Shown piece by piece: positions 1 through 5,264 of a DNA stretch of 64,000 bases. How positions within the stretch are numbered: the stretch's first letter is position 1; every line of letters begins with the position of its first letter. Under the pieces are notes generated by a model. That model saw only the letters and a program-made list of their open reading frames with translations. It ran no database searches and had not been told where the DNA came from. The DNA comes from Cyanobium sp. N.Huapi 1H5 (GTDB lineage: Bacteria > Cyanobacteriota > Cyanobacteriia > PCC-6307 > Cyanobiaceae): contig NZ_JAGQBH010000004.1 in the NCBI RefSeq assembly GCF_024345535.1, positions 62,001-126,000 of the forward strand, read 5' to 3'. The position numbers and the translations under genes were made by a program.

Positions 1-2159
1 CAGATGATGCCCAGCACATCCACCCCGGAGGCCCGGATGCGACGGCTGGCCTGGGGAGCCAGCTCACGACTCACCTTGCCGAGGCCGACCAGGAAGAGGA
101 TGCCGTCGAGCTTCTCTCCCAGCAGGATCGGATCGGCCAGCATCAGGCAGGGAGGCGCATCCACGACGATGATGTCGTAGCCGGGAAGGGCACGGATCTC
201 GTCCATGACTTCCTTGCAGCGGGTGGAGTTGAGCAGCTTGGCCGGATCGGGCGGCTTCGGGCCGGCAGGAAGCACATCCATGTTCTCGGCGATGGAGTGG
301 ATGAAATCCGTCGGTTTGCGGGTTGAATCCGAGAGCAGGGTGGAGAGGCCGTCGCCCTGCTCCACACCCAGGTAGCGGGCCTGCATCGGCAGCCGCATGT
401 CGGAGTCGATGACGAGCACCTTGAGGCCGAGGTCGGCCAGGGTGCGGGAGAACACCGCCACCGCGGTGGACTTGCCTTCCCCCTGGGTGGAGGAGGTGAT
501 GCCCACCATGCGGATGCTGCTGTCGGCGCGGAGCAGTCGGAAGGTGGTGAACAGGCTGCGCAGCGACTCCTTGATGGCGAAGCGCTCGCTCGAGGACATC
601 TTCGAGATGCTGGTGGCGATGTCGACACCGGGCTCCAGGGGCAGGTAGGGAATCAGACCCAGAACCGGCAGCTGCAGGTCCTTCTCCACCTCCATGGGGG
701 TGTGGAAGACGTTGTCGGTCCGCTCCCGGAGGATGGCGGCGCCGAGACCGGCCAGGAGACCGATCATGATCGCCCTGAGCAGGTTGCGCTGGATGTTGGG
801 CTCCACCGGGCTGCCGCCGAAATCGGGAGGTCCGATCACTTCCCAGGGGGAGATGGAACGGGCCATCTCGAGCCGGTAACGCTCCCTGGCCTGGATGTAG
901 GAGGAGTACTGCTCCCTGGCGATCGAGAGCCGCTGGTTGATGTTCTCGAACTCCGACATCTTCTGGGGATTGTTCCGGAAGTTCTCGCTCAGCAGAAGGA
1001 TCTGGCGGTTGATCTCATCCTGCTGGGCCACGTTGGAAAGCAGCCGGGCCTTGACGGCGTCGGCGGCCTGCCGCTGCACGACGGGAAGCAGCTGGTTGCG
1101 GCGGGCGATCAGGGACTGAACGATCGGAGAGTTCTCCTTGAACGTGCCCTTGGCGGTGGCCAGCTCCTGCTCGAACTGGTTGAGGAGGTCAAGGGGCGTC
1201 TTGGTGCCGCTGGCAGCCTCGGCTCCGGAGGAGCCCCTTCCCGGCACCAGAACGCTGTTGCGACCCAGCTGCTCGAGGGCGGTGGGGGCGCCGCTGGGGG
1301 TGAACTGCAGCTTGCCGGTCTGGATCGACTTCAGCTGGCTGTCGAGCTGGACCTGCTCGTTCTGAAGGGTGCGCAGCTGGTTGACGAGACCTTCGCGGGC
1401 CCCGAGGATCTGGCTGGCCGCCGCGGCAGGGTCAACAAAGTTGTTGCGTTCCCGGAACCTGAGCATCTCCTGGGAGAGCTTGGTGACCCGTTCCTCGATC
1501 GCGGGGGCCTGCTCGTCGAGGAAGCGGACGCCGGAGTTGACCGCCGCCTGGCGCTGGGTCAGGGAGAAGGCGGTGTAATCCTTGGCGAGCTGGCGGAGGA
1601 TGGCCTTGCCCTTGGCTGGATCGGGCCAGCGCAGGGAGACGTTGAGGACGTTGTCGACCCGGGCCGACTCCTGGTTGATGGACAGGTTGCTCTCCAGGGC
1701 CCGGAGCGGCACGCCCTGACGCTGGGCGACCGGCCCGAGCAGCAGGGGGCTGCGCATCAGAACGATGAGACTGGGCACATCGGTCTTGATCTCGCTGCGG
1801 GCGATGGTCTCCACGGAACCGCTGCCGCCGCCGCTGCCCGGATTGTCAAAGGGATTGCTGATCTGCATCTGGAACCCCCCCTGGTAGACGGGGGAGAAGA
1901 TGCGCTGACGCAGCGTGTTGATCGCCAGGACCCCGGTGACCACGGCGAAGGTGATCAGGAAAATGGACTGGCGGCGCTTGACCGTGCGGACGAGTCCCCC
2001 CAGGCCGCCGCCGCCGGACTGACCCTCGCCGATGGGGCTGAGGGGACTCTGCTGCGACGGATCGAAAGCGCCTGCACCCGGACCACCCGCGGCGGGAAGG
2101 GACAGCGGGCGCGCGGTTCCACCCGGAAAGGTCTCAGGAGGAACACCCGTCGTTGTCAC
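1..2159 (-). CDS. Wzz/GumC-type chain-length determinant fused to BY-kinase (3' end beyond window)
   Basis: Inner-membrane polysaccharide co-polymerase with a cytoplasmic bacterial tyrosine kinase domain, which controls chain length and export of capsule or exopolysaccharide. About 719 residues are visible; the C-terminus, where the Tyr cluster normally lies, is off the left edge. A first membrane segment lies near residues 63-83, a long coiled periplasmic region follows, and a second membrane segment lies near 458-478. The kinase domain has a Walker A motif at about 553-565 (STQGEGKST), Walker A' VLVIDSD at 581-587 and Walker B IIVVDAPP at 663-670. Start: GTG at 2159 gives the natural N-terminus, but the frame stays open upstream and no clear ribosome binding site is seen, so the start is uncertain. 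It is divergent from the OPX gene. Family assignment is firm; the substrate is unknown. Confidence 0.9.
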   Translation of the reverse strand, partial: MTTTGVPPETFPGGTARPLSLPAAGGPGAGAFDPSQQSPLSPIGEGQSGGGGLGGLVRTVKRRQSIFLITFAVVTGVLAINTLRQRIFSPVYQGGFQMQISNPFDNPGSGGGSGSVETIARSEIKTDVPSLIVLMRSPLLLGPVAQRQGVPLRALESNLSINQESARVDNVLNVSLRWPDPAKGKAILRQLAKDYTAFSLTQRQAAVNSGVRFLDEQAPAIEERVTKLSQEMLRFRERNNFVDPAAAASQILGAREGLVNQLRTLQNEQVQLDSQLKSIQTGKLQFTPSGAPTALEQLGRNSVLVPGRGSSGAEAASGTKTPLDLLNQFEQELATAKGTFKENSPIVQSLIARRNQLLPVVQRQAADAVKARLLSNVAQQDEINRQILLLSENFRNNPQKMSEFENINQRLSIAREQYSSYIQARERYRLEMARSISPWEVIGPPDFGGSPVEPNIQRNLLRAIMIGLLAGLGAAILRERTDNVFHTPMEVEKDLQLPVLGLIPYLPLEPGVDIATSISKMSSSERFAIKESLRSLFTTFRLLRADSSIRMVGITSSTQGEGKSTAVAVFSRTLADLGLKVLVIDSDMRLPMQARYLGVEQGDGLSTLLSDSTRKPTDFIHSIAENMDVLPAGPKPPDPAKLLNSTRCKEVMDEIRALPGYDIIVVDAPPCLMLADPILLGEKLDGILFLVGLGKVSRELAPQASRRIRASGVDVLGII

Positions 2160-2218
2160 GTTATGAACCGCAGGGAAAGTTGAGCTGATGATAATGGCAA
2201 CCAGCAAAGAATGCCCCC

Positions 2219-2261: not shown

Positions 2262-3482
2262 GTGGCTTCTCCTCCCAGAACATCCGTACGCCAGGGATCT
2301 GCAGCATCTGACGGAAGGTCCCGTCGCAGGAGCCTTCGCCCCTCGATCCGGCGGCGTCTCTCTTCCCTTGGCGTACTGGGTCTGGCCGGTGTGATGGTGG
2401 CCCCGACAGGCCTGAAGGCCTCGGTGCCCCAGGGGGTGGCGCCCCATTCCCCCTGGCGGGGTGCCGCGGCCGTGAGCGCCGCGCCCAACGCCGGTCCAGC
2501 GTCGTCGGCCCCTCTGCCCCTCACGGTCACGGAGGTCTACAACGATCTTTACGTCCTCGGCCCCGGGGATGGTCTGCAACTCACCTTCACCGACCCTTCT
2601 GCCTCCGCCATCGGCGGCCCGGTCGTCATCCTTCCCGACGGCACCTCGACCCTGTCGCTGCTGGGATCGGTGCAGCTCACCGGCCTGACCATCGGCCAGG
2701 CCACCCGCTGGCTCACCTCGCTCTATGCCAAACAGCTGGTGCGGCCCGAGCTGATCCTCAGCCTCACCACGCCCCGCCCCGTCAAGGTGACGATCATCGG
2801 CGAGGTGGGCCGTCCTGGCCTCTACCCCCTGGCCTCCTATTCCACTCCGGTCTCGGCGATCCAGACGGCCGGCGGCGTCACCCTGAACGCGGACATCCGC
2901 AAGGTGCTGCTGCGGCGTCTGGCCGGGCCCGACGGCAGCCAGAAGCAGACCGTTCTGGACCTGGCCCAGGTTTTCCAGGTCGGCAACCAGCGGCAGAACC
3001 CGATCCTGTTCGACGGCGACACGATCGTGGTCGCCCGCACGGAGGATCTGATCCCCGAGGAAATCCTCCAGATCGGTGCCACCAACCTGGCCCCGGCCAC
3101 CATCAACGTCTCGGTGATCGGCGAGGTCCGCAGCCCCGGCAACCTCAGCCTTCCCGCCAACACCCCCCTGGCGGAGGCCATCTTCCGGGCCGGTGGGGCG
3201 GAGAACTGGCGGGCCAACAAGAACGACATCGAGCTCGTCCGCCTCAACCGCAACGGCACCACCACCCGGGAGGTCTACAGCTACCGGGATGGCATCGGCG
3301 TCTCCAAGGGGTTGAATCCCCCGCTCCGGGATCGGGACACGATCATCGTCAATCGCACCTTCTACGCCGAGGCCCTCGACGTCATCAATCAGGTCATCGT
3401 TCCCCTCAGCCAGGCCGCCAGCTCCTACTATTTCTTCCGAGATACATTCAACGGCAACAGAAACAACAACAACTTCCGCTGA
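2262..3482 (+). CDS. Polysaccharide export protein, OPX/Wza family
   Basis: Periplasmic/outer-membrane polysaccharide export protein. The 406-residue product has a basic N-terminus and hydrophobic segment (about residues 25-50, GVLGLAGVMVAP), consistent with a signal peptide, but no lipobox cysteine follows, unlike classical Wza. A Poly_export domain begins near DLYVLGPGDGLQLTF, and two SLBB-type repeats contain IIGEVGRPGLYPL and VIGEVRSPGNLSLP. The C-terminal tail ends in an Asn-rich stretch. The GTG start at 2262 fits the signal peptide; it lies 102 bases from the divergent BY-kinase start. It is followed closely by a proline-rich protein and an outer-membrane barrel, probably one operon. 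Whether it spans the outer membrane itself cannot be told from sequence. Confidence 0.9.
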   Translation: MASPPRTSVRQGSAASDGRSRRRSLRPSIRRRLSSLGVLGLAGVMVAPTGLKASVPQGVAPHSPWRGAAAVSAAPNAGPASSAPLPLTVTEVYNDLYVLGPGDGLQLTFTDPSASAIGGPVVILPDGTSTLSLLGSVQLTGLTIGQATRWLTSLYAKQLVRPELILSLTTPRPVKVTIIGEVGRPGLYPLASYSTPVSAIQTAGGVTLNADIRKVLLRRLAGPDGSQKQTVLDLAQVFQVGNQRQNPILFDGDTIVVARTEDLIPEEILQIGATNLAPATINVSVIGEVRSPGNLSLPANTPLAEAIFRAGGAENWRANKNDIELVRLNRNGTTTREVYSYRDGIGVSKGLNPPLRDRDTIIVNRTFYAEALDVINQVIVPLSQAASSYYFFRDTFNGNRNNNNFR

Positions 3483-3504
3483 CAACCGCTTCTCGAGCCC
3501 TCCC

Positions 3505-4593
3505 ATGTACCGCGAACCCACCATCAGCCCCAAAGCCATCGCCTGGGCCCTGCTGAGCCAGTCCATCTGGCTGCCCCTGCTGGCCATCGATGCCCACGAC
3601 CGCTGGCAGTCGCGGGTCAAGGACATGACCATCCCCCAGCCGGCTGATCCCAAGGGGACCGACGAAGCGATCGCCTCGGCTCAGGAAGCACCGTCCACCA
3701 CCCCGGCTCCCGCCACCTCCTCGCCCCTCGACGACCTGGGCACCACCACCGGCCATGTGCTGAGTTCGGCCTCCGAAAAAATCGGGTCGTTGCTGGATGC
3801 CCCCCTCGCCCGCAGCCTCGATCTCAGCGGTCCCCCCAGCACCTCGCGGGCCCGGCGGCCCGATCCCGGTCGCCGTCCGGCGGTCGCCCTCCGGAGCACC
3901 GCCCCGGTCCAGCTGGCCAAGGCCCCTGGCCGCCCGGCGTCCTTCCGCATCGACGGTCCCCCCCTGGGCACCACTGGCCTGGGCAGCGCCCAGACCCTGC
4001 TGCAGCGCAACTTCTCGAATTCCGAGCTCCTCGGTGGGGTGCTCACCATCCAGGATCTGGGCCTGCCCGCCATGCCAACGGTGGCGCGGGCGGAACGGGC
4101 CCGCTGGGCCAGCAGCGGCGATCCGATGGCTCCCATTCCCCAGAACCTGAGGGAGCCGATGCGCCAGGCGATCCGCACCCTGCCGGCCCCCACGCCCACC
4201 AAGACGGCCAAGCTCCAGCAGGCCCGGGTCATCCATGTCCCCTCGACCCGGGTCAGCAAGCCCACCCAGGTGCCCCTTGCGATCCAGGCGGACGGCAGCG
4301 TCGATGTGCTGAGCCAGCCGGATGATCCCGCAGTGATCGAGGACATCAAGGAGTGGTCCAGCCGCCAGCCGGCCCAAGCCCCCGGGACCGTCACCCCCAC
4401 GGTGGTGAACCTGCAGCCGCTCCCGGCTGAGGACAGGGCCACCCCCGCCCCCGTCCGGGTCTCGCCGGTGGCCAGCAGCGCCCCGATCGCACCGCCGCCG
4501 CCGCCGGCCGCTGCCACGGTGGCCCCTGTGGCGGAAGCTCCCGCCCCCACCCCGGCCCCGGCCGGTCCCGCCGGCGCCGTGGTGGCCCAGTGA
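3505..4593 (+). CDS. Proline/alanine-rich membrane-anchored hypothetical protein in export operon
   Basis: I do not recognise this 362-residue protein. It has one probable N-terminal membrane segment or uncleaved signal (about residues 11-30, IAWALLSQSIWLPLLAIDA). The rest is low in hydrophobic residues, and the tail (about 300-362) is Pro/Ala-rich and probably extended. That architecture resembles periplasm-spanning linkers such as TonB-like proteins, but no TonB domain is visible. It begins 22 bases after the OPX stop, and its own stop overlaps the next start (GTGA at 4590-4593), so it is probably translated with the OPX and barrel proteins. A role bridging inner and outer membrane in polysaccharide export is inference from context only. 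Confidence 0.75.
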   Translation: MYREPTISPKAIAWALLSQSIWLPLLAIDAHDRWQSRVKDMTIPQPADPKGTDEAIASAQEAPSTTPAPATSSPLDDLGTTTGHVLSSASEKIGSLLDAPLARSLDLSGPPSTSRARRPDPGRRPAVALRSTAPVQLAKAPGRPASFRIDGPPLGTTGLGSAQTLLQRNFSNSELLGGVLTIQDLGLPAMPTVARAERARWASSGDPMAPIPQNLREPMRQAIRTLPAPTPTKTAKLQQARVIHVPSTRVSKPTQVPLAIQADGSVDVLSQPDDPAVIEDIKEWSSRQPAQAPGTVTPTVVNLQPLPAEDRATPAPVRVSPVASSAPIAPPPPPAAATVAPVAEAPAPTPAPAGPAGAVVAQ

Positions 4594-5264
4594 AGCGGAT
4601 GCGGCTCCACCCGGGCGGTGCCCCTCTGGTCGGTCTGGCCTGCCTGGCCCTGGCGGCCGATCCTGGTCGGGCCCAGTCGCTGCCGGCGCCACCGGCTCCC
4701 TGGGTCCCCATCGCCCCGGAGCCCGCGGCAGCCGGCTGGGAGCCCGTCACCGACGCGGCCACCCTTCCTCCCGACTACCTCCCGCCACCGGCCAACCGTG
4801 ATCCCGCCGAGCTGGCCGTCGTGCCGCGCCAGGGCAAACCGATCGAGAACGTGGGGATCTACGGCATCGGCGGTGGCGTCAATTTCGGCAGTGACTTACC
4901 CACCAGCGGGGTGTTCACGGGTCGTATCGGGTACAAACTCAACGAAACCCTGGCGGTCTCCCTGCGTCCCAGTGTGATCTTCGGCAACCGGGATGTGCTG
5001 GGTCGCTACAACGGCCAGACCTCCTTCCAGCTGCCCCTCACCCTGGATCTGTTCCGCCGCTCCGTGGTCTCCCCCTACCTGGGGGGTGGCATCGCCACCA
5101 ACACCTATTCCACCGGCCAGACGAACGCCATGCTCACCGGCGGCGTTGATCTGAACATCACCCAGAACGTGACCCTGGGGTTCAACGTCAACTACGTCTT
5201 CCTGCCCGATGGCGTCACTTTCGACGCCCTTCAGGCCATGACGCTGCTCTACCTGAAGTTCTGA
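4590..5264 (+). CDS. Small outer-membrane beta-barrel protein in export operon
   Basis: The 224-residue product has a signal peptide (GLACLALAADPGRAQS), a Pro-rich linker (about 30-80), then alternating amphipathic strands (about 85-224) ending in LYLKF. A C-terminal Phe is typical of outer-membrane barrels. The size suggests about eight strands, as in the OmpA/OmpW/opacity class. The GTG start overlaps the upstream stop by four bases (GTGA), which indicates translational coupling with the proline-rich protein. In this operon it could be an outer-membrane partner of the OPX protein or an unrelated surface barrel; sequence alone does not decide. Confidence 0.75.
   Translation: MKRMRLHPGGAPLVGLACLALAADPGRAQSLPAPPAPWVPIAPEPAAAGWEPVTDAATLPPDYLPPPANRDPAELAVVPRQGKPIENVGIYGIGGGVNFGSDLPTSGVFTGRIGYKLNETLAVSLRPSVIFGNRDVLGRYNGQTSFQLPLTLDLFRRSVVSPYLGGGIATNTYSTGQTNAMLTGGVDLNITQNVTLGFNVNYVFLPDGVTFDALQAMTLLYLKF

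Follow-up and report, generated by a model that had tools for sequence, protein, structure and literature searches.

The 64,000-nucleotide stretch analyzed here from the genome of Cyanobium sp. N.Huapi 1H5, a freshwater picocyanobacterium (contig NZ_JAGQBH010000004.1, positions 62,001 to 126,000; hereafter the window) carries close to its start a gene for an outer-membrane polysaccharide export (OPX) protein, followed by the genes of an inner-membrane-anchored, Pro/Ala-rich protein, P0002, and of a small outer-membrane β-barrel protein, P0003. A wzc-type kinase gene runs divergently from opx. We give an even chance to the reading that this is a Wzc/Wza-type exporter in which the OPX and a dedicated TonB-like tether, P0002, form the conserved pair, and in which the barrel is an optional, clade-specific accessory. 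This reading builds on gene order, conservation, co-inheritance, selection, and domain anatomy, all of which were observed directly.

On a mechanistic level, the locus would represent the export end of a Wzx/Wzy-type exopolysaccharide (EPS) pathway, that is, one with a polysaccharide co-polymerase (PCP) of type 2a and an OPX. The divergent Wzc-type kinase and the OPX would form the trans-envelope channel. P0002—apparently built like TonB or TolA, with a single helix in the inner membrane, a linker rich in Pro/Ala that spans the periplasm, and a small strand–strand–helix–strand domain—might tether or position the outer-membrane part of this exporter from the inner membrane, its domain docking on the OPX or on a neighboring outer-membrane protein, and would probably work without an ExbBD motor. 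The barrel would be a later, clade-specific, and co-translated accessory, for example an outer-membrane docking or anchoring site.

The placing, opening, and holding of Wza-type pores against Wzc across the envelope is incompletely understood, and a co-inherited, probably TonB-like protein encoded right behind opx would be a genetically tractable handle on this step. If the reading is true, the TonB/TolA design is employed outside of uptake and Tol-Pal, and a small barrel adjoining an OPX gene need not signal a composite translocon. Our literature search retrieved no paper joining a TonB-like protein, Wza, and polysaccharide export. Speculatively, and with considerable doubt, a protein of TonB/TolA fold might have been taken into service by Cyanobiaceae as a periplasm-spanning partner dedicated to the OPX pore, which positions or gates Wza-type export from the inner membrane and to which one clade later added an outer-membrane barrel receptor.

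Conservation and co-inheritance of the OPX–P0002 pair

The three open reading frames are real genes and lie where the original prediction had placed them. Their mean pN/pS—the ratio of the proportions of nonsynonymous and synonymous differences—amounts to 0.19 for the OPX, 0.23 for P0002, and 0.15 for P0003 (12–13 species). These low values reflect purifying selection on all three and, hence, mark them as genuine. A spacer of 22 bases separates opx from P0002, and the GTG start of P0003 overlaps the P0002 stop by 4 bases as GTGA; this overlap, pointed out in the original prediction, is present in 13/13 sequences compared.

A relative of P0002 is found in 18 of 151 Cyanobiaceae genomes and adjoins opx in 17 of these 18—in one genome (G108) in two copies, each next to its own opx. 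The exception (G032; L043:5983-6333 and surrounding open reading frame) is a 1046-residue protein not beside opx, which combines a cytoplasmic part with a membrane helix and a Pro-rich stretch and ends in a P0002-like domain. The OPX–P0002 pair is conserved across at least eight Cyanobiaceae genera, and a profile of the P0002 domain matched three of 292 phylum-wide genomes, all from one genus; within the genomes searched, the P0002 family is found in Cyanobiaceae only. When the presence of P0002 is mapped onto the OPX tree, two changes suffice, as compared with 8.9 in shuffles (0/500 as low). Hence, P0002 travels with its OPX.

Of the three-gene linkage originally expected, the pair stands, whereas the full trio is restricted to one clade. 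Here, the barrel lies beside P0002 in the window, in loci L076–L087, in G090, and in other members of the genus; G062, from this same genus, has no barrel. It is likewise absent from the syntenic loci of the nearest relatives (L037, L088, L090, and L093), where P0002 runs straight into the same downstream block of a minus-strand hypothetical gene followed by era. Since these barrel-less loci keep that block, the barrel was either inserted in the trio clade or cleanly lost elsewhere. Moreover, as many P0002-bearing loci do without it, the barrel is not the main partner of P0002, for which the OPX would be the best candidate.

The OPX protein as a probable Wza-like pore

The OPX of the window comprises 406 aa, its GTG start being uncertain with relatives of 411 to 421 aa. 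Poly_export scores above the Pfam cut-off, and so do SLBB and SLBB_2 over two stretches—features of class 1, Wza-like OPX proteins (PMC9603273). There is no cysteine anywhere in the protein and thus no lipobox, as had been predicted.

In a hidden Markov model alignment, the OPX family profile (26 relatives from Cyanobiaceae) is co-linear with E. coli Wza (2J58, residues 234–355) through the terminal outer-membrane helix; a second, weak stretch of this alignment sets the OPX segment "...AKAVDAINAVVAPLTSLVNVLTLLRLL" opposite the Wza outer-membrane helix. Within this helix, Pro381 is invariant in all 26 relatives, and the pN/pS of 0.064 is the same as that of the globular core. Given this co-linearity with Wza through the terminal helix, and a constraint on the helix that equals that on the core, the OPX probably forms its own pore; judged by these alignments, its C-terminal helices most likely line the outer-membrane passage as they do in Wza. 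Two observations weigh against this assignment: the terminal-helix match is weak by itself (7.2 bits), and Pfam Wza_C was not reached in the Pfam profile search, for which reason class 1 membership is likely rather than formal. The helical hydrophobic moment was left out as evidence because neither the OPX helix nor the Wza helix itself rises above shuffles.

The original prediction raised the idea of an OPX that needs a separate barrel. In such a composite OPX/β-barrel translocon, the barrel would complete or gate the passage for an OPX unable to span the membrane, with P0002 as a bridge. Pairs of this kind occur in other bacteria—EpsY/EpsX and WzaX/WzpX of Myxococcus or VpsN/VpsM (PMC9601211, PMC9603273)—and resemble the present locus in having an outer-membrane barrel gene near opx; the operon with its invariably kept overlap and the strong conservation of the barrel domain (pN/pS 0.063) are in line with such a pair as well. 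We nevertheless regard a composite translocon as very improbable here. Its OPX is described as a D1D2 or D1D2D2 protein of at most 280 aa without C-terminal helix, a length range to which 93% of OPX-linked barrels are matched, and its barrel as 16- to 18-stranded (PMC9601211). The Cyanobium OPX, on the contrary, is long, with an aligned Wza-like helix region, the barrel has about eight strands, and close relatives with the same opx–P0002 pair manage without it. The OPX would thus not belong to the short, helix-less type known to pair with 18-stranded barrels, and a need for a separate barrel is not supported. The suggestion of the barrel as a gate loses ground, too: a ring of membrane-spanning helices contributed by the OPX itself would speak against it, and such helices are largely what the alignment to Wza indicates.

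With the Wza–Wzc exporter of E. coli group 1 capsules, the locus shares a PCP-2a tyrosine kinase and an OPX bearing Poly_export, two SLBB stretches, and a probable, aligned C-terminal helix. It differs by the lack of a lipid anchor cysteine, by the extra P0002 and—in one clade—the extra barrel, and by its stand-alone position beside a cyanoexosortase block instead of within a capsule cluster.

P0002: a putative periplasm-spanning protein with a probable TonB-like domain

P0002 has a single hydrophobic stretch at about residues 10–30, which is kept across the family and corresponds to the single helix of TonB and TolA. The one membrane anchor that had been predicted is, therefore, present, whereas the description of the remainder as mainly a long Pro/Ala tail is not adequate: 59% Pro+Ala is reached in the last 54 residues only, and residues 168–308 constitute a conserved domain with a pN/pS of 0.10, as compared with 0.33 and 0.35 in the linker and in the tail, respectively. 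The alignment of distant relatives likewise displays a conserved domain of ~140 residues, bounded by a linker and a tail of poor conservation. P0002 as a mere low-complexity anchor was rejected in view of this core.

A TonB_C-like pattern (VPLAIxxDGSVDVL...DPAVxxEIxxWSxxQ...GxVxPVVVxLxPLP) was spotted in this domain before folding. AlphaFold predicts for residues 150–312 two helices followed by strand–strand–helix–strand, at a predicted local distance difference test (pLDDT) score of 73. Using VIA-align, the top 11 rows for the predicted domain are all C-terminal domains of TonB (Z 3.2–4.3, root-mean-square deviation 3.0–5.7 over 63–77 residues), with TolA and HasB ranking lower, and hhalign against cyanobacterial TonB_C scores 19.0 in the expected register versus 17.0 for the best of 100 column shuffles. 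A TonB/TolA-like C-terminal fold of residues 168–308 is hence probable and moderately supported by sequence pattern and model. Against it weigh the Z score of at most 4.3, a range that the tool itself warns about, the hhalign probability of 5%, the lack of any significant Foldseek match, and the profile searches, in which P0002 matched no Pfam, NCBIfam, or PDB-sequence family and no TonB came up among Pfam and PDB sequences. The top Foldseek rows (dynamins, acetyl-CoA carboxylase) were discarded as noise.

The TonB-like architecture strengthens the earlier idea of the Pro-rich protein bridging the periplasm, which is plausible. With the TonB/TolA force transducers, P0002 would share the N-terminal membrane helix, the Pro-rich spanning linker, and the predicted strand–strand–helix–strand domain; unlike them, it carries a Pro/Ala tail behind the domain and is linked to opx rather than to exbBD or TonB-dependent receptors.

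This likeness also raises the question whether P0002 might be a motor-driven TonB paralogue that ExbB/ExbD energize to open or pull the OPX or the barrel. Besides the architecture, the gene content of the genome would suit such a role: an ExbB/ExbD locus is present elsewhere, yet neither a plug domain of TonB-dependent receptors nor a Pfam TonB_C match. We consider this explanation quite unlikely. The SxHxLxS motif by which the helix of TonB/TolA-type proteins binds the ExbB/TolQ motors (PMC12204202) is absent in 12/12 family members tested, whose membrane helix has no conserved His, and the missing motif makes a motor-free P0002 probable. Furthermore, the ExbBD locus has a Pro-rich anchored protein of its own. 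The OPX–Wzc export route, finally, already has its energy source in synthesis. In the ExbBD locus (L147:4-1932, G000:C11), the ExbB and ExbD-like genes stand together with this anchored protein of 240 aa.

The small barrel

P0003 shows a signal peptide and amphipathic strands and ends in Phe, and 6/6 family members match Pfam OMP_b-brl, the window protein itself with E 5e-6 and 27.2 bits at a cut-off of 28.7. Its barrel domain of 139 residues has room for ~8 strands, in agreement with the small barrel of the original prediction and with the view that it is unlikely to be the pore. Eight-stranded barrels of the OmpA/OmpX type cannot pass a polymer. The fold was judged from the sequence, AlphaFold reaching a pLDDT of 31 with 13 close homologues, and a PDB sequence search with the barrel profile returned nothing meaningful; that the strand count comes from the sequence has to be held against the picture drawn here. 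The barrel is probably an accessory and not the polysaccharide pore.

It is somewhat unlikely that P0003 is just an unrelated small outer-membrane protein that came to share the operon by chance. Weak, distant relatives of the barrel do occur widely among other cyanobacteria (54 non-Cyanobiaceae genomes), where 0/18 loci read had opx, wzc, or P0002 within 1.5 kb, and G143 carries a barrel relative at another locus. Overlap and order, however, are kept in 13/13 clade members that span ~80–97% P0002 identity, which speaks against a chance neighbor.

Organization of the locus and its surroundings

The features described are compiled in Table 1.

Table 1 Features of the export locus (positions in the window)
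Feature	Position	Strand	Remarks
wzc-type PCP-2a/BY-kinase gene	1..2207	-	874 aa in full; extends past window start; divergent from opx
OPX (Wza-like) gene, 406 aa, no cysteine	2262..3482	+	Pfam Poly_export E 3e-10, SLBB E 1.3e-20; PDB Wza matches
Poly_export (PES) domain of OPX, residues 96–167	2547..2762	+	Pfam
Two SLBB stretches of OPX, residues 175–257 and 283–334	2784..3263	+	Pfam
C-terminal amphipathic helix region of OPX, residues 366–398, putative counterpart of the Wza outer-membrane helix	3357..3455	+	2J58 alignment, Pro381, pN/pS
P0002, 362 aa, inner-membrane-anchored, Pro/Ala-rich periplasmic protein with probable TonB/TolA-like domain	3505..4593	+	No Pfam or NCBIfam family
Single N-terminal transmembrane segment of P0002, about residues 9–28	3529..3588	+	Hydropathy; Trp22 invariant, Pro24 nearly so
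Conserved periplasmic domain of P0002, residues 168–308: predicted two helices, then strand–strand–helix–strand	4006..4428	+	Alignment, AlphaFold, VIA-align, pN/pS
Pro/Ala-rich C-terminal tail of P0002, residues 309–362	4429..4590	+	59% Pro+Ala
GTGA stop/start overlap of P0002 and P0003	4590..4593	+	13/13 sequences
P0003, small outer-membrane β-barrel protein, 224 aa	4590..5264	+	Pfam OMP_b-brl; C-terminal Phe; at this locus in one clade only
Pro/Ala-rich periplasmic linker of P0003, residues 30–85, between signal peptide and barrel	4677..4844	+	49% Pro+Ala
Barrel domain of P0003, residues 86–224	4845..5261	+	pN/pS 0.063; amphipathic strands

The kinase gene was completed by reading the locus beyond the window (L070:6584-9208). 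Its product matches NCBIfam eps_fam above cut-off (E 2.7e-32) as well as Wzc and chain-length models, and bears a PCP periplasmic domain fused to a tyrosine autokinase domain—the hallmark of the PCP-2a/BY-kinases—and a Tyr-rich C-terminal tail. In the P0002-bearing loci with enough flank, this divergent neighbor of opx is kept. The order of genes in L070 is WecA-like transferase, CapD-like dehydratase, cyanoexosortase A-like protein, unknown gene, dual-specificity phosphatase, wzc (on the opposite strand), opx, P0002, and barrel. The phosphatase (L070:5830-6540, HCx5R-type motif) thereby lies beyond the 3′ end of wzc; the same type is found directly behind opx in an OPX subgroup lacking P0002 (L045:5269-5733 and others). 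It is likely the Wzb counterpart for the kinase.

The cyanoexosortase A-like gene (L070:4315-5253, G000:C7) lies ~1.7–2.7 kb before the window start, with the WecA-like and CapD-like genes alongside, near wzc. This recalls exosortase-linked EPS loci with EpsE and PEP-CTERM export families: in NCBIfam, the OPX ranks best on EpsE and on PEP-CTERM/XrtA-system export models, both below cut-off. In the literature searched, no TonB-like protein is described for such loci, and the cyanoexosortase papers retrieved contain none on this opx–P0002 pair.

The neighborhood also permits P0002 to be seen as a passive cell-wall or cargo factor of a cyanoexosortase-linked EPS locus—a peptidoglycan spacer or a PEP-CTERM-type display helper—that takes no part in the channel. 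Surface EPS is stabilized by exosortases; in Nostoc, exosortase B influences the retention of polysaccharide on the cell surface (PMC12188702). Cyanoexosortase A was encountered in the fetched flanks of 7/13 barrel-less P0002 loci versus 0/25 loci with an OPX but no P0002 (Fisher P 1.4e-4), a count that is only approximate because flank lengths differ among the loci. We hold such a passive role to be unlikely, since the P0002 gene sits directly downstream of opx rather than in the block with the exosortase gene, and its distribution follows the OPX tree. A PEP-CTERM target search of the genome was uninformative, giving no match there and none in the control either.

Scattered EPS genes are a known feature of cyanobacteria (PMC4594306). 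The genome encodes a second, distant OPX (27% identity; L069:6668-10808, G000:C5) with a chain-length-like protein behind it and an adjoining family 8 glycosyltransferase, here without P0002. Two clade members (L067 and L068) bear an additional opx/wzc set without P0002, which stems from the other OPX subgroup.

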